Source: a virus
Direction: 5' to 3' (one strand)
IMG/VR virus record: IMGVR_UViG_3300007734_000504
Location: 1-24,824 of that record
Length of the DNA: 24,824 nt
The notes under the pieces are model-generated. The model was not told the DNA's origin and searched no databases. It was given only the letters and a program-made list of their open reading frames with translations. The translations under genes and the position numbers were made by a program. The stretch's first letter is position 1. Each line of letters begins with the position of its first letter. This document shows positions 2,317 through 21,737 of the stretch, piece by piece.

Positions 2317-2815
2317 AATACAGTACAAAGCCACAGAGGATTTAATTCCCTACGCACGCAACAGCCGCACGCACAGCGCCGAGCAAGTGGCTCAAATAGC
2401 AGCCAGCATACGGGAATTTGGCTGGACAAACCCAATATTAATTGACGGCGAAAACGGCATTATTGCTGGGCATGGCAGGGTATTGGCAGCACATAAGCTG
2501 GGCGAAACGCAAGTGCCTACCATTGAACTAAGCCACATGAGCGACACTCAAAAACGGGCATACATCATTGCGGATAACAAGTTGGCGTTAAATGCTGGGT
2601 GGGATGATGAAATGTTGGCGTTAGAAATTGATGAATTAAAAGAAGCAGGATTTGATCTTAGCTTTACTGGATTTACAATTGACGATATTAATGCTTTAAA
2701 AACACCTGATTTTGATGCAGCAAGTGAAGACGATCAAGGCAAGTTAGATCAATTAGACCCTAAATGGATTGCTTGCCCTCATTGTGGAAAAAAATTTGAT
2801 GCAAGACAAGCCTAA
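2309..2815 (+). CDS. ParB-domain protein with C-terminal CxxC tail
   Basis: The 168-residue protein has a full ParB/sulfiredoxin N-terminal domain: LIPYARNSRTHS at 12-23, QIAASIREFGW at 29-39, the nucleotide-binding box IIAGHGR at 51-57, and ADNKLAL at 88-94. It lacks the long DNA-binding and dimer domains of chromosomal ParB. It ends with WIACPHCGKKF, a single CxxC knuckle at 156-159. Phage ParB-domain proteins of this type are often fused to or neighbour DNA methyltransferases. Here no methyltransferase follows; the next gene is Mom-like and overlaps by 17 nt. A role in DNA modification or in sensing DNA is an inference. The CTP/ATP-binding fold is established for the family. Confidence 0.85.
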   Translation: MIEIQYKATEDLIPYARNSRTHSAEQVAQIAASIREFGWTNPILIDGENGIIAGHGRVLAAHKLGETQVPTIELSHMSDTQKRAYIIADNKLALNAGWDDEMLALEIDELKEAGFDLSFTGFTIDDINALKTPDFDAASEDDQGKLDQLDPKWIACPHCGKKFDARQA

Positions 2816-3494
2816 TTTAAAAATTGATTGGGCAAGCCATGAAGCGGCTAAATATGCTTGCACAAATTGGCATTACAGCAAATCAATTCCTGTGCCGCCG
2901 TTAGTAAAGATCGGTGCATGGGAAAATGGTAAGTTTATTGGAGTCGTTATTTTTAGCAGAGGAGCATCATCAAATTTAATGACACCATACGGATTAAAAC
3001 AAGACGAAGGCGGTGAATTAACTAGAATTGCTTTAACAAATCATAAAAGCACAGTTAGTAAAATAATTAAATTTGCATTAATCTTTTTAAAAAAAAATAG
3101 CCCAAATTTAAGGCTAATTGTCTCGTTTGCAGACCCACAATATGGGCATCATGGCGGCGTTTATCAAGCAGGGAATTGGGTTTATTGCGGAGATACAGCT
3201 TCAGGCGTTGAATACTGGCATAAAGAAAAAAGACTTCATTCTCGGCAAGTTAGCGAAAAAGGTTGGAACATTCAACAAGGACAGCAGCGCAAAACTATAA
3301 AGCCAAGCGAATGTAAAATAATAAAAACAATTGGTAAGCATAGATACTTGATGCCACTTGATAAAGAAATGAGTGCTAAAATTGCATTATTGGCAAAGCC
3401 ATATCCTAAGCGTGAGAAGCAGGCGATGGTTGATTCCCTCAACACAGCGGTGGTGCATCACCAACCCTCACGCTCCAATGCCAACGTACCCTAG
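2799..3494 (+). CDS. Mom-like adenine (methylcarbamoyl) DNA modification protein
   Basis: The start is ATG 2799; an upstream TTG at 2769 lies deep inside the ParB gene. The 231-residue product shows a GNAT-like layout. It has WHYSKSIPVPP at 24-34, WENGKFIGVVIFSRGA at 41-56, GELTRIALTNH at 72-82, and SFADPQYGHHGGVYQAGNW at 109-127. The WHY...ELtRiAL...SFADp.GHhG.iYQAgnW series is the signature I associate with the Mom family, which converts adenine to N6-methylcarbamoyl-adenine in phage Mu and shields DNA from restriction. The spacing of Asp112 and Tyr122 fits the residues I recall as important in Mu Mom. Codons are AT-rich compared with neighbours (about 20-35% GC in 3001-3120), suggesting separate acquisition. 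Activity is inferred. Confidence 0.75.
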   Translation: MQDKPNLKIDWASHEAAKYACTNWHYSKSIPVPPLVKIGAWENGKFIGVVIFSRGASSNLMTPYGLKQDEGGELTRIALTNHKSTVSKIIKFALIFLKKNSPNLRLIVSFADPQYGHHGGVYQAGNWVYCGDTASGVEYWHKEKRLHSRQVSEKGWNIQQGQQRKTIKPSECKIIKTIGKHRYLMPLDKEMSAKIALLAKPYPKREKQAMVDSLNTAVVHHQPSRSNANVP

Positions 3495-3912
3495 TAACAG
3501 TAAATGCAGCGAACTAGGATGCAAAGAGCCAAGAAGCAAGCTAAACAGCTACTGCACCAAGCACGGCGGCAAAGACAATCTAGACGCTAGGCAAACAGAC
3601 AGCATCTACCAAACACCAGCATGGCGCAGCGTAAGACAACGCCAGCTAAGCATCCAGCCCTTATGCCAAGCCTGCCTAAGCAGGGGCAAAATAGAGGCCG
3701 CACAGCACGTAGATCACGTATTTCCTTGGCGGCATATGGGAAAGCACGCCTTCCTTCACAACATCTTCCAATCTCTTTGTCACGCCGACCACAGCCACAA
3801 AACAGCGCAAGAGCGTAAGGGTAACTACCTACACTGGACAATGGAAGGCGAGCGCACGTACACACAGGCCGACTATGCTTATGCAATGCGCCAAAATGTG
3901 CACACAAATTGA
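3478..3912 (+). CDS. HNH endonuclease with N-terminal zinc knuckle
   Basis: A 144-residue HNH nuclease. I choose ATG 3478 because the conserved protein begins there (MPTYPSNSKCSELGC) and longer in-frame starts only read through the Mom-like gene. The N-terminal part has C10, C15, C26 and H29, a possible zinc knuckle. The core has C63-x2-C66, the AQHVDHVFPWR motif with H77, D79 and H80, HN at 94-95, and CHADHSHK with C101 and H105. HNH proteins beside terminase genes in HK97-like cos phages assist the terminase in cutting concatemers, so a packaging role is likely from position. It overlaps the previous gene by 17 nt. Confidence 0.85.
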   Translation: MPTYPSNSKCSELGCKEPRSKLNSYCTKHGGKDNLDARQTDSIYQTPAWRSVRQRQLSIQPLCQACLSRGKIEAAQHVDHVFPWRHMGKHAFLHNIFQSLCHADHSHKTAQERKGNYLHWTMEGERTYTQADYAYAMRQNVHTN

Positions 3913-7676: not shown

Positions 7677-8432
7677 ATGAACGAAATGCTAATCGTCTGC
7701 GAAGCAAAACTAAATCTGAACCAGCAACCCGGCACAATTGAAGCCAGGGTCACAAGCTGGGGGCCACGAGAAGGCGCAGACGGGCGCAAGTTTAATTATC
7801 AGCCAGAAGGCTTTGCAGACTGGGCCAAAGAGTTTGAGGCAATGGGCAGGCCGTTACCCATGTTTGTCAATCACTCAGCGGACGCAATCCCTGTCGGCGA
7901 ATGGATGCATTTTGAGTTTGACGATACCGGCATGACTGCCAGCGGCAGACTCTACACCAACACCACCCAAGGCAGCGACCTCTATAACGTGATGAAAGAA
8001 TCGCCAGCCATGTTTGGCGGGGTATCTGTTGGAGCGTATGCCGAGACTTATCAGATGGTCAACGCTGACGGCGAACCAGACCAATCTGACGAAGCATATT
8101 TTCAAATTACCAAGGGCGGCTTGCGGGAAGTTTCTGTGGTCATGTACCCCAACAACCCCGAAGCCTGCGTCAGCAAGCTGGAATACTTTAGGCCCGATGG
8201 GTCTGCAAATTTAAAGATTTTGGAGCAAGCCTTGCGTGATGCTGGGCTATCTAAAAGTGATGCGGTTGCCGCTGCATCGACTTTCAAAAAGGTGCTGGAG
8301 CAGCGTGATGTTGTCCAAATCCCGAATGAAATTGCGCCGAACCAGAGCGACTCTGATGCGGAGGCAACCATACTCGCCGCCCTTGAGCAGCGGGAATTAT
8401 TGCAAACTTTGTCAAACCGTTTAAGGAAATAA
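7677..8432 (+). CDS. Prohead maturation protease (HK97/U35 family)
   Basis: This 251-residue serine protease shows the family triad in expected order: His66 in MFVNHSADAIPVG, Ser117 in GGVSVGAY, and Glu151 in LREVSVVMYPNNP. Spacing is close to HK97 gp4, which cleaves the delta domain of the capsid protein and is then degraded. The C-terminal part after about residue 180 is Ala/Gln/Leu-rich and likely helical. ATG 7677 is preceded by a GAGGT site. The capsid gene follows after a 2-nt gap, which supports coupled expression. Confidence 0.92.
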   Translation: MNEMLIVCEAKLNLNQQPGTIEARVTSWGPREGADGRKFNYQPEGFADWAKEFEAMGRPLPMFVNHSADAIPVGEWMHFEFDDTGMTASGRLYTNTTQGSDLYNVMKESPAMFGGVSVGAYAETYQMVNADGEPDQSDEAYFQITKGGLREVSVVMYPNNPEACVSKLEYFRPDGSANLKILEQALRDAGLSKSDAVAAASTFKKVLEQRDVVQIPNEIAPNQSDSDAEATILAALEQRELLQTLSNRLRK

Positions 8433-8434
8433 TC

Positions 8435-9775
8435 ATGTCCCAAGTCATCATTGAAAAACTTGATGCTATTGAAGCCGCCAACGCCGCCAAAATTGCTGAA
8501 GTTACCAGCGCAGCTACTGCTGCAATTGACATTGCCAAAAATGAAATGGCTGAGAAAATCTCGGCGCTTGAGGCAAAAATCAGCACGCTGCAAATGCCTC
8601 CCGTCATTCAAATTGCCAAAACAATTCGCACTGACGTCAATCGCTCTGTCCGTGAGCAGTTGAAATCATTTTATTCCGCCAACAATCGGGTGGAAAAAGC
8701 ACTAAAGATTTTTGCTGATGAAAATCAATATCTGGCTTACATGAACGAAGCCTCTGCGCTAACTGGCGGCGGCAATGGCATCGGTGGACGCACGGGTTAT
8801 GACCCTGTGTTTGCAGCAATGCGTTTGGCTAACCCTATGCGTGGACTAAGCCGAACTGTTGTTACTGATGGTTCTAGTTATCAATTCCGCAGCAAAACCG
8901 GCAACGCTGGCGCAACTTGGGGCTACACGGTCCAAAACAACGGCGGCGCAACCACGCAAGATATGAATATCTGGCAACTGGTGCTGCAAGATTTGAACGT
9001 GCAATTCCCGGTACGTACTGCTGCACTGGACGACATTGATGGGCTGGAAGGCACCATTGTTGACGATATGCTAATGGAGTTTGCCCAGGCCGAAGCGCAG
9101 TCCATGATCCAAAACAGCGATCAAACCAACTCGCCTAATACCTATGGTGGAACATCCGGTTTGCGTGGTCTAGATCAATATCCTGGCGCAAATGCCACTT
9201 ATGCAGGCGGCACTACCAGCGCAGCAGCTTACGGCACCAGCGGTACGGGCAGTGCTACCGGCTTGCACAGCATTGCTACATACGATCAATTGACTAGCAA
9301 CGTCAACACTGTCGGCGCAAATGCAATAACTTACAAAGACGTTATCAATCTTTGCTATGCACTGCCCCAACAATATTGGACGACTAACGCTTGTTTCATG
9401 GTTAACCCTGTGCTGGCGCAAGCTATTCGTGGCCTGCAAGATACCAATGGACGTCCAATTTTTAACTCAATGGAATCGCTGAATCCAGACGGCATTATTG
9501 GGCAATTGTTGGGCTTTAATGTTGTTATGAACAAGTATCTTGACAACCCAAGCCAAGCAACAACCGGCAGCGCAGGAACCACATCGTTGTACCCAATGTA
9601 TTTTGGGAATTGGCAGCTTGGTCACAGCATCATTGATCGCATGGACATGGTAATGCGCCGCTACGACCAGACGACCCCAGGCTCGATTACGTTCTATGGC
9701 GAAAAACGGCTGGCAACCAGTATTCGTGACCCGAACGCCATCATCCGTTATCGCTCGACCGGCACAGCGACCTAA
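8435..9775 (+). CDS. Major capsid protein with delta domain (HK97 fold)
   Basis: A 446-residue capsid precursor. Residues 1 to about 104 form an Ala/Glu/Lys-rich helical segment (IEKLDAIEAANAAKIAEV and following), the expected delta or scaffolding domain. It is followed by the shell domain that starts near EASALTGGGNGIGGRTGYD and ends with GSITFYGEKRLATSIRDPNA, a typical HK97-fold C-terminus. The adjacent protease would remove the delta domain during maturation. The ATG has an AAGGA ribosome site. The gene is followed at once by a strong intrinsic terminator, consistent with very high expression of the final gene of this transcript. A shorter paralogue follows the terminator. Confidence 0.93.
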   Translation: MSQVIIEKLDAIEAANAAKIAEVTSAATAAIDIAKNEMAEKISALEAKISTLQMPPVIQIAKTIRTDVNRSVREQLKSFYSANNRVEKALKIFADENQYLAYMNEASALTGGGNGIGGRTGYDPVFAAMRLANPMRGLSRTVVTDGSSYQFRSKTGNAGATWGYTVQNNGGATTQDMNIWQLVLQDLNVQFPVRTAALDDIDGLEGTIVDDMLMEFAQAEAQSMIQNSDQTNSPNTYGGTSGLRGLDQYPGANATYAGGTTSAAAYGTSGTGSATGLHSIATYDQLTSNVNTVGANAITYKDVINLCYALPQQYWTTNACFMVNPVLAQAIRGLQDTNGRPIFNSMESLNPDGIIGQLLGFNVVMNKYLDNPSQATTGSAGTTSLYPMYFGNWQLGHSIIDRMDMVMRRYDQTTPGSITFYGEKRLATSIRDPNAIIRYRSTGTAT

Positions 9776-9784
9776 GTTGCCATT

Positions 9785-9817
9785 GCAGGGGGAGGTTGGA
9801 CTTCCCCTGCCTTTTTT
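9785..9817 (+). terminator. Intrinsic terminator between the two capsid genes
   Basis: A perfect-looking 10-bp stem pairs GCAGGGGGAG (9785-9794) with CTTCCCCTGC (9801-9810) around the six-base loop GTTGGA, with one G:T pair. A C and six T residues follow directly (9811-9817). It lies 10 bases after the stop of the first capsid gene and 20 bases before the start of the second. Expression of downstream genes must depend on partial read-through or an unseen promoter. Confidence 0.9.
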
Positions 9818-9837
9818 AACTATTCGGGAAAAATCAA

Positions 9838-10869
9838 ATGACTACAGCACGCATTTTGTCGGGCATTAAACAAACGCTACACGAAGGCCATGCTGTCAAA
9901 ATTGATTTGACCGAAGCCTCAGCTCTCACTGGTTCTGGAAACGGAATCGGTGGGCGCACATTTTTTGATAATGCTTTTGCTGCGTTGCGATTTGCAAATC
10001 CAATCCGTGAATTATCAAGGGTAATCCCTGCGGCTGGCTCCAGCGTGCAATTTGTTGCAAAAACAGGTAATGCCGCCAACAGCACAAACCCCTGGTTGTA
10101 CGCTGCCACGCCAGACACTGGTTCACCAAACACCGCTACCAGCATTTGGCAATTGCCAACCCGAGTTGTCAGCGCCAGTTTGCCCGTGCGAACAGCGGTA
10201 ATGTCGGACATTAACTATTTGAATGAAACGCTCGTTGAAGACATGATGCTGGAATTTGCACAGTTAGAAGGTGCAAGCATGATTTTAAACAACGATCAAA
10301 CCGGCTCTAGCACAACAAGTACAGGCAGCACCAATGGCCTACGTGGACTAAATTATTATGCAAGCGGCTCGGCAGCTTACGGTTCATCTGGCACTGCAAT
10401 TACAGACGGCATACACACAATATTAACTGTATCGCAAAACGGCGCTGCAATTGTGTACGATGATTTAGTCAACTTGGCTAAAAGTTTCCCGGCACAATAT
10501 TGGAATTTGCCCGGTTGCGCTTGGATGATGCACCCAAACACGATTCACGATTTGCGTCAGCTTAAAGCAGCAAGCAGCGGTAATGCCAGCCGACTGTTGG
10601 CAGAAACAGGCGATGACGATGGCGGCGCTGTAGCTAATTTGTTTGGCTGGCCTGTGATTCCAAACCCAAACATGGAAACCATTGCCGCAGGAAAATTTAC
10701 GATTTACCTTGCTAATTGGCCCAGGTTTGTAACTATTGCAGACGTAGAGGAAATGACTGTGCAAGCAATGGAGCAAAGCGCACCGGGATTTATTACTCTG
10801 TACGCCGAGCGCCGAATGGTGTCTACCGTGCGTGACCCGTTTGCAGGCGTGCGTTTGGTTGGGGTCTAA
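9838..10869 (+). CDS. Second HK97-fold capsid-like protein lacking the delta domain
   Basis: The 343-residue protein is a clear paralogue of the gene before it. EASALTGSGNGIGGRTFFD at residues 26-44 matches the start of the shell domain of the first protein. Further shared blocks are FANPIRELSR, SSVQFVAKTGNA, LPVRTAVMSDI, DMMLEFAQLEGASMI, GLRGL, AQYWN, and APGFITLYAERRMVSTVRDP at the end. Only about 25 residues precede the shell domain, so the scaffold-like delta domain and a protease site are missing. It could be a vertex (pentamer) or minor capsid subunit, or a decoy produced by duplication; its exact role is unknown. An intrinsic terminator precedes it, so it is probably made at a lower level. 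Confidence 0.9.
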   Translation: MTTARILSGIKQTLHEGHAVKIDLTEASALTGSGNGIGGRTFFDNAFAALRFANPIRELSRVIPAAGSSVQFVAKTGNAANSTNPWLYAATPDTGSPNTATSIWQLPTRVVSASLPVRTAVMSDINYLNETLVEDMMLEFAQLEGASMILNNDQTGSSTTSTGSTNGLRGLNYYASGSAAYGSSGTAITDGIHTILTVSQNGAAIVYDDLVNLAKSFPAQYWNLPGCAWMMHPNTIHDLRQLKAASSGNASRLLAETGDDDGGAVANLFGWPVIPNPNMETIAAGKFTIYLANWPRFVTIADVEEMTVQAMEQSAPGFITLYAERRMVSTVRDPFAGVRLVGV

Positions 10870-10871
10870 GA

Positions 10872-11531
10872 ATGTCCAGCGAAATCCTTGGCGCTCAAGG
10901 TGGGGCAACCCGCAACCCGTTCAATTACGCGAAAGTCGAGCAGGTAAATCGGGATGTAGTGACGCCCTGGCTCACGCTGGATGAAATTACTCAACAGCTA
11001 AATTTGTTTGATGACGAAAGCCAAGATGACTATTTAAGCAGCCTGGAACTGGCGACCAGGTTTGCCATAGAAGATTATCTCGGGATGTCCATATTTTCCA
11101 TGACGTATCGGGTTTGGTACGGCGCTCAAGGAACCATTACCGCACCAATGGCTCTTGACTTGCCAGAAGTCAGCCAGAATTTATACCCTACGCAAGCAGG
11201 CATAACAATTAACTCTGTTGGTTATTACAACAACAGCGCACCGCCTACCCTTACTTTATTAACAGCATCAACCTACTACTACGATGCCAGCGGCAACCGG
11301 GTTATTTTGACCAGCCTGCCCACAATCACAAGTGACATGGCAAACCCAATTGTCGTGACTTACACCACTGCCGCCAACCCGTTGCAAACGTATCCCGCAA
11401 TCAAACAAGCTGGCTTGTTGTTACTGACGCACCTATACAACCAGCGCAGCAACAGCACGGAAGCATCGCTAAAAAATATTCCGTTTGGCGTAGATACACT
11501 GTTACGTCCGTATAAAGAATTGGTCATGTAA
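10872..11531 (+). CDS. Head-tail connector protein (HK97 gp6-like)
   Basis: A 219-residue protein with the helical N-terminal block of gp6-like connectors: TPWLTLDEITQQLNLFDD, then DDYLSSLELATRFAIEDYLG. A beta-rich middle follows, then the C-terminal helix YPAIKQAGLLLLTHLYNQRS and the end NIPFGVDTLLRPYKELVM, which is typical of the family (IPxGVxxLLxPYR). The protein would form the ring beneath the portal. The start is 2 nt after the second capsid gene, and the stop overlaps the next start (ATGTAATG), indicating coupled translation. Larger than the classical HK97 gp6 because of the inserted beta region. Confidence 0.85.
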   Translation: MSSEILGAQGGATRNPFNYAKVEQVNRDVVTPWLTLDEITQQLNLFDDESQDDYLSSLELATRFAIEDYLGMSIFSMTYRVWYGAQGTITAPMALDLPEVSQNLYPTQAGITINSVGYYNNSAPPTLTLLTASTYYYDASGNRVILTSLPTITSDMANPIVVTYTTAANPLQTYPAIKQAGLLLLTHLYNQRSNSTEASLKNIPFGVDTLLRPYKELVM

Positions 11532-17992: not shown

Positions 17993-18441
17993 TGATTCGT
18001 GAAGCCAACAAACACGATATGCCGCAGTTGCTGCAAATGATGCGGGACTACAGCACGCAAACGCCCGTGCCAGCACTACAAGCAGCAGCAGCGCATGATG
18101 AGGCGCACGTTGCCAACTTAATGACGCAAATGATGACAGGCCGTGGCTTTGTGCTGATCGACAATGAATCTAGGGGCTTTATTGCTGCATTGATTACTAC
18201 AAATGTCTGGTGTCCAGAAGTCTACGAATTGCACGAACTGGCCTGGTGGGTTAAACCCGAGCATCGTAATGGAACCGTTGGCGGCAGGCTTTGGAAAGAA
18301 TTTGATCGCCTGGCTACAGATTTAATTGACGATGGACGCATTGATGTGGCAGTAACCGCTGTGATGGCAAACAACTCATGGATTGATTACACCAAACGAG
18401 GCTACAGCCCTATGCAAGCAACATTTTTTAGGGTGCATTGA
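17992..18441 (+). CDS. GNAT-family acetyltransferase-like tail-module protein
   Basis: ATG 17992 overlaps the previous stop (TGATG); the protein has about 149 residues. It starts MIREANKHDMPQLLQMMRDY, the typical GNAT beta1-alpha1, then FVLIDNESRGFIAALIT (strands 2 and 3), YELHELAWWVKPEHRNGTVG (strand 4 and the acetyl-CoA pyrophosphate loop, here HRNGTVGGRLW rather than strict Q/RxxGxG/A), and SWIDYTKRGYSPMQATFFRV at the end (GNAT YxxxGF-like). In lambda this site holds the NlpC/P60 tail protein gpK. GNAT proteins with structural roles are known in some virions, so acetylation or a structural role is possible. The fold is confident; the substrate is unknown. Confidence 0.82.
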   Translation: MIREANKHDMPQLLQMMRDYSTQTPVPALQAAAAHDEAHVANLMTQMMTGRGFVLIDNESRGFIAALITTNVWCPEVYELHELAWWVKPEHRNGTVGGRLWKEFDRLATDLIDDGRIDVAVTAVMANNSWIDYTKRGYSPMQATFFRVH

Positions 18442-21400
18442 TGGTAGCAACAATTATTGCGGCTGGAGCAGCTTTATTAGGAGGTGGCGCTGCGGCTGTA
18501 GCAATATCAACATTTGCAGTTAATTTTGCCGTTAGCTATATTGTTGGTCGGATATTTGCCCCTAATGACCCAACAGCAAATCAACCCGTAGACCAAGGCG
18601 TTAGACAACAAGTTGCACCCAATACCACCAACAGCTTGCCTATTGTTTACGGCAGCGCATACATGGGCGGCACATTTGTGGACGCAGTGCTGACAATTGA
18701 CCAGCAATCAATGTACTACGTGCTGGCAATCAGCAGCATTAGCCCTAATGGGCAATTTACTTTTGATCGCACCAAGTTTTACTACGGCGACCGTTTGGTG
18801 ACTTTTGATGCCTCAGATTTAACCAAAGTTGTCAGCTTGACAGACGGTGCTGGCAATGTAGACACAAAAATTAGCGGTTATCTTTACATCAATTTGTACA
18901 CCTCAACTGATGCAGGTGCCATCACTACCATCACGGGCAGCGCACCAAATACCGCAATGGGCGGCGCAGACATTATTGCAGCGGAACGCTGGCCTGCTGC
19001 CGTTCGACAAATGAATGGTTTGGCGTTTGCAATCGTAAAACTAAACTACAACCGAGACGCAGGCACCACAAATCTACAAGCCATCACGTTTAACGTCACT
19101 CAAAATTTAAACGGCACAGGCGCAGCTAAACCAGGAGATGTGTGGGCAGATTATTTAGGCAATGAAGTCTACGGCGGCGGCATGGCAGCAGGGTTAATTG
19201 ATACCGCCTCTGCAACTGCGCTCAACACCTACGCTGACCAAACCATTACGTTTACCGACAGCAACGGCAATCCTGCAACTCAAGCCAGATATCGAATCAA
19301 CGGCGTGTTGGATACAGGGCAAAATGTACTTGCCAACATTGATCGCATTATGCTGGCCTGCGACAGTTGGAACGCTTACAACGCAGCGTCCGGACAGTGG
19401 TCAATTGTGGTCAACAAAGCGGAAAGCACCGCATACGCTTTTGACGACACAAACATTATTGGCGACATAAAAGTCAGCTTGACAGATATTGCAAACTCAA
19501 TCAATCAAATTGAGGCTCAATTCCCAAACAAATTAAACCGTGACCAGCGAGATTTAGTTTATCTTGAAACCCCGTCAAACCTGCTTTACGCTAACGAGCC
19601 AATCAATAAATTCTCATGCAATTTTGACTTGATAAATGAGTCTGTCCAGGTCAGTTATTTGGCAAATCGAGTGCTAGAGCAAGCCAGAGAGGATTTGATT
19701 GTTGGCATCAATGCAGCTTATCCAGCCATCCAGTTAGACGCTGGCGATGTGGTATCCATCACAAACACCAGTTACGGCTGGAGCGCCAAGTTGTTTAGGG
19801 TGATGAAGGTTAGCGAGGTATCACTGCCTGACGGCAATTTAGGCGCAAGTCTAGAACTTAATGAATACAACGCTGCCGTCTACGACAACGCCACTATAGT
19901 CCAGTACAGCCCAGCACCCAATACTCAAATCACAGACCCGTCTTTTTTTGGCACTGTCCCTGCGCCAACAGTCACCGCCAGTTACCCATCAGCGGCAGTG
20001 CCGACAATCACTGTGCAGCCGTATGTTGGGACCGCCAGTTTTGTAACTGTTGCAGAAATATGGTACTCAGCATTTGCCAGCCCAACGCCAAGCCAACTGT
20101 ATTTGTTGGGGTTTACGCAAGTGCCAAGCAACGGCGTCCCTATTTCTCCAAGCCAATCACTGCCCACGATATCGGCAACGCTCCCTGGCGGCAATTGGTA
20201 TTTGTTTGCTCGTCTTGTAAATGGTATTGCAACCAGCCAATATTCTGTAGCCTCATCAGTTTTGCAATGGCGACCAACTACTTTTCAATATACCGAGCGA
20301 TACATAAATGTCCGCTACGGCAACGATTTAGTGGGGACAGGCTTTACCACTAACCCAAGAAACAAAGCGTACTATGGCCTGCAAAACACGCCTAGCACTA
20401 CTGGCAGTTCAAACGCATCTGATTACACCTGGTATCAAGCATCGTCTAATTTTTCGACTGATAAATATTTGTTGTATGTAAATCGAGGCAATCGCAAATT
20501 CAGTTTTGAAGTTGGAGAAGCGTCATTTGTAAATCTTAACGCTGCCTTTGTTCCGACTAACACAGCGGTTTATGACCCAACAATATGGCTGGGATTAGAA
20601 GACGGCATTAACAGTATTGATTTAGACATCAGAACAGGACAACTAACAATTGTTGGAACAACGGCTGTATCACAACAAGACGGCATTGTTTCCGTTACCA
20701 ACAACACCAACGGCACAATGGTGGTAAAACTAGCTCAATTCTTAAATTTTGGCGCAGGCGTTTATTCTAAGAATTTTGCAGCCGCTACATTGACAATTGA
20801 TGTATTCGGGCGAGTAGTGGGTTTTACTTCCCCTGACAGTTTTTACTACACCGAGTCAACATTTCAAGCCACAGCAGCGCAAACAACATTTTCTGTAACG
20901 CACATTGTCGGTGATGTTTTAGTATTTAAAAATGGTTTGTTGCTTGATACCACAGAATACACCGAGACAAGCACCACTGTAGTTTTAGGAACAGGTTGCA
21001 CAGTCAATGATACTGTCATTATCATAAACATGAGGGCTGTTAGCACATCAGTTTTCTATGAAGATTTAGGATTATTTGTTGTTGATAACGGCGTAAATTA
21101 TATTGAGTATGCCAATCAACCCTATCAAAATATAGTGGTAGGAGATATTCTCACATTTACAAATGTTGGAACACCAACTCAATACACGGTAACAGCGTTC
21201 TATCCAGGAATTAATATTGTTGAATTCAGCCCAAATCAAGGTGGCAATTTAAATGGTGCTAGTGTTTACCGCTACAGAGCAGCAGCATCAACTTACCGAC
21301 CGTGGTCACGTTACAGCGCAGACGTTACTGCGGTAACAACTTACACACCGACAACTATTACAATTCAAAACGGGTTTGAATCAATCTACGTCAATGGCGT

Positions 21401-21737
21401 GCAATTCAGCGAAATTGATTACGATTTAGATGGCCCTGCAATTGTTGGATTTCCAGGCGCAGTCACAGGAAAAATTACAATCATTTTATATTCAGGAAAT
21501 AATTACGCCGTGCCAGCTAGCAACGTAACCAACAGCGTGGCATATTCGGTTAACGGCGCAATTACTTACACATTCCAAAGCAACCCATTAGCAATGGAAG
21601 TTTACGCCAATGGAGTTATCCTTGCCAAAACTTATGATTACAACGCCAGCGCAGCAAATTACAACTTAGTTACTGCGATTCCAAATAATTACACTTTGCT
21701 AAACCAACAAACATTTGCAAGAGATGGAGCCGCATAA
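18441..21737 (+). CDS. Central tail hub / host-specificity protein (lambda gpJ-like)
   Basis: The largest complete gene, 1098 residues from ATG 18441. The N-terminus (residues 2 to about 38) is a hydrophobic, Gly/Ala-rich helix that could insert into a membrane. LPIVYGSAYMGGTFVDAV and the region to about 480 resemble the J-like hub (putative phage tail domain), including DRIMLACDSWN and the typical AGDVVSITNTSYGW. Fibronectin-like and beta segments follow. The C-terminal 300 residues hold related beta modules with the pattern vyvNG..l...dY (FKNGLLLDTTEYTET, IYVNGVQFSEIDYD, VYANGVILAKTYDYN). The protein would form the trimeric tail tip and contact the receptor. The next gene starts in its stop (TAATG). 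Confidence 0.85.
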   Translation: MVATIIAAGAALLGGGAAAVAISTFAVNFAVSYIVGRIFAPNDPTANQPVDQGVRQQVAPNTTNSLPIVYGSAYMGGTFVDAVLTIDQQSMYYVLAISSISPNGQFTFDRTKFYYGDRLVTFDASDLTKVVSLTDGAGNVDTKISGYLYINLYTSTDAGAITTITGSAPNTAMGGADIIAAERWPAAVRQMNGLAFAIVKLNYNRDAGTTNLQAITFNVTQNLNGTGAAKPGDVWADYLGNEVYGGGMAAGLIDTASATALNTYADQTITFTDSNGNPATQARYRINGVLDTGQNVLANIDRIMLACDSWNAYNAASGQWSIVVNKAESTAYAFDDTNIIGDIKVSLTDIANSINQIEAQFPNKLNRDQRDLVYLETPSNLLYANEPINKFSCNFDLINESVQVSYLANRVLEQAREDLIVGINAAYPAIQLDAGDVVSITNTSYGWSAKLFRVMKVSEVSLPDGNLGASLELNEYNAAVYDNATIVQYSPAPNTQITDPSFFGTVPAPTVTASYPSAAVPTITVQPYVGTASFVTVAEIWYSAFASPTPSQLYLLGFTQVPSNGVPISPSQSLPTISATLPGGNWYLFARLVNGIATSQYSVASSVLQWRPTTFQYTERYINVRYGNDLVGTGFTTNPRNKAYYGLQNTPSTTGSSNASDYTWYQASSNFSTDKYLLYVNRGNRKFSFEVGEASFVNLNAAFVPTNTAVYDPTIWLGLEDGINSIDLDIRTGQLTIVGTTAVSQQDGIVSVTNNTNGTMVVKLAQFLNFGAGVYSKNFAAATLTIDVFGRVVGFTSPDSFYYTESTFQATAAQTTFSVTHIVGDVLVFKNGLLLDTTEYTETSTTVVLGTGCTVNDTVIIINMRAVSTSVFYEDLGLFVVDNGVNYIEYANQPYQNIVVGDILTFTNVGTPTQYTVTAFYPGINIVEFSPNQGGNLNGASVYRYRAAASTYRPWSRYSADVTAVTTYTPTTITIQNGFESIYVNGVQFSEIDYDLDGPAIVGFPGAVTGKITIILYSGNNYAVPASNVTNSVAYSVNGAITYTFQSNPLAMEVYANGVILAKTYDYNASAANYNLVTAIPNNYTLLNQQTFARDGAA

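Follow-up and report, generated by a model that had tools for sequence, protein, structure and literature searches.

Why would a phage of the HK97-like siphovirus type carry two adjacent capsid genes, with a scaffold domain on the first of them only? This question is raised by the window, that is, the whole stretch of DNA that was analysed, which spans an entire virus record of IMG/VR (24,824 bases; linear class, probably a fragment). An earlier note on this DNA had likened the pair to a division of labour between hexamer and vertex subunits. The features under discussion are listed below, with the first capsid protein denoted as MCP and its paralog as PAR.

7677 to 8432, + strand: prohead protease of the Peptidase_S78 type (PF04586, E 2.7e-9; PHROG head maturation protease)
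8435 to 9775, + strand: MCP, HK97-fold major capsid protein of 446 aa (PF05065, E 2.7e-32; phrog_10 major head protein; 58% identity to the capsid protein of P19250A)
8435 to 8746, + strand: delta-like N-terminal domain of MCP, residues 1-104, predicted helical (AF2 helices; family-wide composition; no counterpart in PAR)
8747 to 8794, + strand: motif EASALTGGGNGIGGRT, start of the MCP shell core (sequence and alignment)
9785 to 9817, + strand: terminator-like hairpin (10 bp, loop of 6) with a T-run, between MCP and PAR (247/249 relatives vs 3.4% in shuffles)
9838 to 10869, + strand: PAR, paralogous HK97-fold capsid protein of 343 aa without the delta domain, proposed vertex subunit (PF05065, E 5e-23; 38% identity to MCP; 56% to P19250A_0006)
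9913 to 9960, + strand: motif EASALTGSGNGIGGRT of PAR, the same motif as in MCP (sequence)
10872 to 11531, + strand: head-tail adaptor, at the end of the shell gene pair (PF05135; phrog_442 and phrog_40)

Both MCP and PAR score above the Pfam cut-off for PF05065, and both are matched to the major head protein in PHROG; by gene family, they are ordinary PF05065 capsids. In BLASTP, the two share 38% identity over 343 aligned columns (E 7e-69), and the RDP motif is found in each of them, at 9725-9733 in MCP and 10831-10839 in PAR. The pair of open reading frames, the HK97-fold shell core and the shared motifs described in the earlier note were thus all recovered. It had also been claimed that the N-terminal scaffold domain belongs to the first protein only, and this is borne out by the lengths ahead of the shared EASALTG motif, which are about 104 residues in MCP and about 25 in PAR. 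The short N-terminus of PAR is predicted to form a short helix and is conserved among PARs. MCP combines the delta domain with an adjacent gene for the S78 prohead protease, which would cut this domain off, whereas PAR has no delta domain.

In the AF2 model, the extension of MCP is made up of helices at residues 2-50, 62-91 and 96-109, with a pLDDT of 71-79 for residues 1-50 only and of 34-47 further on. Throughout the family, charged residues and Ala are frequent in this extension, while Gly and Pro are scarce. Such a composition, along with the modelled helicity, is as would be expected of a delta-like scaffold domain. The full models of MCP and PAR, made from family alignments without the P19250A row, have a mean pLDDT of 49-51. 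With Foldseek/VIA, they match chiefly HK97-fold shells (best structural Z of 11.1 for PAR and 10.4 for MCP, at an rmsd of 7-9 angstrom for these low-confidence models), and T4-type capsids are absent among the best structure matches listed for these weak queries. By sequence, the solved structure nearest to both proteins is that of the RcGTA major capsid protein. An HK97 fold is supported for both MCP and PAR by these RcGTA matches together with the matches to the weak models. The structure prediction advised by the earlier note has therefore recognised the fold, but with a pLDDT of about 50, the distinction between five-fold and six-fold packing is beyond the models.

Among 50,697 phage records, the only close relative was Methylophilaceae phage P19250A (KX815270). 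Its genes 0005 and 0006 form a tandem pair in the equivalent place, with MCP 58% and PAR 56% identical to the window proteins; the capsid annotation is present on 0005 only, P19250A_0006 being annotated as a 'hypothetical protein'. The viral contigs of IMG/VR, on the other hand, contain hundreds of relatives of the pair. The final count came to 494 loci, of which 454 carry both genes, 25 MCP only and 15 PAR only. In all 25 MCP-only loci, the contig ends within 350 nt after MCP, and in all 15 PAR-only loci, it starts within 500 nt before PAR; a single-gene locus with room for the other gene was found nowhere among the 494. This absence is not an artefact of the search, because for many loci, MCP was the only query used to find them. 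Several of the loci share one contig, and in total, the set comprises 249 different complete PARs along with the MCPs belonging to them. The second gene is thus kept in related genomes, both in the 454 loci and in the P19250A isolate, as the reading of the earlier note requires. In two loci, the PAR gene (L324:1682-2932) or the MCP gene (L347:3119-4462) is split into two frames, possibly through assembly errors. Neither relatives outside the known group nor a pre-duplication intermediate were found in plasmids or in 274 genomes of one class.

The age of the duplication was addressed with a maximum-likelihood tree, in which seven single-MCP phages served as the outgroup. All seven have one MCP with no paralog after it. 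The MCPs of the group form one clade (support 95/88) and the PARs another (100/99), with a longer stem branch for PAR (1.02) vs MCP (0.59). Since the two kinds of proteins form separate clades, one duplication is older than the diversification of the group, although the precise point of attachment is less certain because the outgroup branches are long. MCP and PAR distances correlate between the two genes (Mantel test on the matrices, r 0.39; none of 2000 permutations reached this value), and therefore the genes have at least partly travelled together. Over 181 comparisons, MCP has a median dN/dS of 0.09 and PAR one of 0.07, and by this measure PAR is constrained as much as MCP, both being under strong purifying selection. 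The tree, the dN/dS values and the co-occurrence together describe an ancient paralogous pair whose members are both retained under selection. An old duplication common to relatives, which the earlier note wanted tested by phylogeny, agrees with the reciprocal monophyly and with the pair in 454 loci, while a recent or degrading copy is ruled out by the tree and dN/dS.

What has PAR kept, lost and gained since then? Its shell core is complete. Its loss of similarity to the single-MCP phages is concentrated in two places: the stretch that corresponds to MCP 388-410, late in the P-domain, and the segment reading DTNGRPIF in MCP, which in the HK97 fold would correspond to the axial loop. An E-loop insert of about 70 aa is present in 20 of the 249 PARs and an extra N-terminal domain of about 100 aa in 7, and neither occurs in any of the 249 MCPs; on the PAR tree, a minimum of 2 changes is needed for the insert and of 3 for the domain. 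As far as these additions go, PAR varies in ways that are foreign to MCP. In the PARs with the E-loop insert (L110:4976-6211, L189:4001-5224 and their relatives), the insert has matches to phrog_21413 and a tail-fibre family, and the MCP of the same genomes is devoid of it. In those with the N-terminal domain (L287:5375-6697, L309:5419-6741 and L285), this domain matches phrog_2859, a family of unknown function, and carries the motif GRGGTEVGVARARDI.

The two genes are separated by a hairpin at 9785-9810, which is followed by CTTTTTT and has a folding energy of -22.3 kcal/mol over a 68-nt region (z -2.3). Outside 9785-9817, the window has no strong terminator-like structure with a T-run. In the family, the 75 nt past the MCP stop were scanned, with dinucleotide shuffles as the control. 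A GC-rich hairpin was observed there in all but 2 of the 249 relatives (shuffles 3.4%), compared with 19 of 243 past the stop of PAR; with the T-run included, the numbers are 218 relatives (shuffles 2.7%) and 7 of 243. Among the terminator-like hairpins, 139 distinct sequences occur, so it is the structure that persists as the sequences diverge, and the hairpin of P19250A matches the window's in position. In two loci, about 600 nt lie between the MCP hairpin and PAR (L173:3406-3992, L428:5338-5981), and in L173 this stretch encodes a YIGKGxxxR-like segment that looks like a GIY-YIG homing endonuclease.

The earlier note held that this terminator sets unequal expression. The hairpin itself is real and nearly universal, but similar ones also lie past the MCP gene in four of the seven single-MCP phages (L349-L355, mutually unrelated or unrelated to the group), namely Azospirillum phage Cd (AzoCd), Halomonas phage H4907 (HmeH4907), Bcep176 and ST64B. 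Because these phages carry it as well, the hairpin is not specific to a two-subunit shell, and its value as specific evidence for the ratio of two subunits is weakened. It is predicted to be an ordinary MCP-end signal, which would lower all downstream genes, including PAR. It is compatible with a minor PAR and falls short of proof.

According to a 2025 paper (PMC12407261), T4 is the one virus in which pentamers and hexamers are assigned to two different HK97-fold proteins, and it serves as the phage example of a rare arrangement in a recent review (PMC13185644, 2026). Its gp24 has a propeptide of 10 residues, vs 65 for gp23, and forms 11 vertices (PMC9958956). The pair in the window is similarly a paralogous HK97-fold pair, the minor member of which has a much shorter N-terminal extension. 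However, T4 is a myovirus of about 170 kb, whereas the window has a siphovirus-type gene set and relatives of about 39 kb. Further, the window proteins belong to PF05065 and are 38% identical, while gp23 and gp24 share 17-20% identity. Pfam and PHROGs matched them to HK97/phrog_10-type families only and to no T4-type capsid family. As the families, the level of identity and the type of phage all differ, the duplication is, on sequence grounds, independent of that in T4, and PAR is not an ortholog of gp24.

HK97 and RcGTA resemble the window in their HK97 fold, delta-like domain and S78-type protease adjoining the MCP gene, but they employ one protein for pentamers as well as hexamers and have no paralog. 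Another syntenic pair of HK97-fold paralogs is that of the Family 2B encapsulin of Streptomyces lydicus, where the two, in strong synteny, build one irregular shell (PMC12407261). That system differs in its mixed shell, cNMP-binding domains and cellular operon, in place of the phage morphogenesis operon seen here; Pfam found no cNMP-binding insertion domain in MCP or PAR, and the neighbours are phage head and tail genes, with no cargo-enzyme operon. In the earlier note, such a tandem pair was called uncommon in HK97-like siphoviruses, and the literature is in agreement. In the open-access literature searched, which does not include the P19250A genome paper (Moon 2017), siphophages with HK97-fold MCP paralogs in tandem are not reported, and neither is a stable tandem duplication with specialisation.

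It is proposed that MCP builds the hexamers of the shell, with its cleavable, helical delta-like domain scaffolding the prohead, and that PAR, an ancient duplicate without this domain, would have specialised in a minor role in the shell, closing the 11 pentameric vertices other than that of the portal. The arrangement would be that of T4 gp23/gp24, evolved independently within PF05065, and we give it somewhat better than an even chance. Other phages of about 39 kb have T=7 heads, and with such a head, about 360 copies of MCP to 55 of PAR would be required. The hairpin past MCP would lower the transcription of PAR and of all later genes. The presence of PAR in the virion, its place at the vertices, the T number, the ratio and the strength of the hairpin are what we infer. 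The obligate co-occurrence and order of the genes, the purifying selection, the PAR-only elaborations and the T4 precedent incline us, by a little, towards the vertex role. Against it counts the fact that in other HK97-like phages of about 39 kb, one MCP forms both capsomers. Moreover, the sequence features of PAR fit any specialised minor shell role.

The main rival, which we regard as unlikely, is that PAR and MCP mix in heteropentamers and heterohexamers, PAR being a second shell subunit without a strict vertex role. PAR has kept the whole shell core, and because it stands at 38% identity to MCP, where gp23 and gp24 have only 17-20%, such mixed capsomers are less easily excluded. A two-component shell with irregular tiling by two syntenic HK97-fold paralogs does exist in S. 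lydicus (PMC12407261), and the low-confidence AF2 model of PAR has structural matches to both subunits of that shell. Nevertheless, PAR-rich capsomers would have little scaffold for want of the delta domain, the long PAR stem branch and the PAR-only inserts point to a distinct site, and tailed-phage shells are regular in composition. A special position is less probable still, with a few copies of PAR around the portal vertex or nucleating the shell there. Portal-proximal capsomers are normally MCP hexamers, and we know of no HK97-fold paralog that acts at a portal vertex, though the gene does sit between MCP and the head-tail adaptor, the protein has no scaffold domain of its own and the hairpin would hold its level low.

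We attach even less weight to PAR as an alternative subunit that alters the size of the head or makes a small shell of its own. The full HK97-fold core, the lack of a delta domain and the encapsulin-like structural matches would suit it, but the longest family contigs mostly measure about 35-41 kb, as does P19250A, and among them neither a second genome size nor an adjacent cargo gene was seen. Finally, PAR might act outside the virion, as a regulator or decoy with a retained fold, or be a decaying duplicate. The annotation of P19250A_0006 as just a hypothetical protein is in keeping with this, and yet a dN/dS of 0.07, a frame open in nearly all of the hundreds of relatives, a fully kept shell core and no loss among the loci make it highly improbable.

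Most tailed phages build pentamers and hexamers from one protein, and the question of why some divide the task between separate proteins has so far rested essentially on one case, T4. If the vertex assignment of PAR is true, a second independent split would be available in small (about 39 kb), abundant and widespread freshwater phages that include a cultured member. Its drivers, such as stability, vertex decoration and assembly control, could then be tested directly, and in many lake viromes a component of the shell would lose its mistaken 'hypothetical protein' label. A broader claim, which we hold tentatively and at a little under even odds, is that this is a second, independently evolved virus lineage, and the first of the HK97-like siphovirus type, with separate hexamer and vertex HK97-fold genes, and that in some members extra surface domains are mounted on the vertex subunit, as the PAR-only E-loop inserts may indicate.

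A few other genes came to attention. In MW202613.1 (L348:2322-3974), positions 3501-3902 match a capsid protein, and the gene annotated there, for a hypothetical protein, runs on the other strand; an MCP gene was probably missed in that record. A Mom-like DNA modification gene lies at 2769-3494 of the window (phrog_1384, E 4e-55), with ParB-like, RusA, NinB/Orf and HNH genes as its neighbours. In the tail region, at 18438-21737, there is an ORF of 1,099 aa without a PHROG match, and the P19250A gene in its place is annotated as host specificity protein J.
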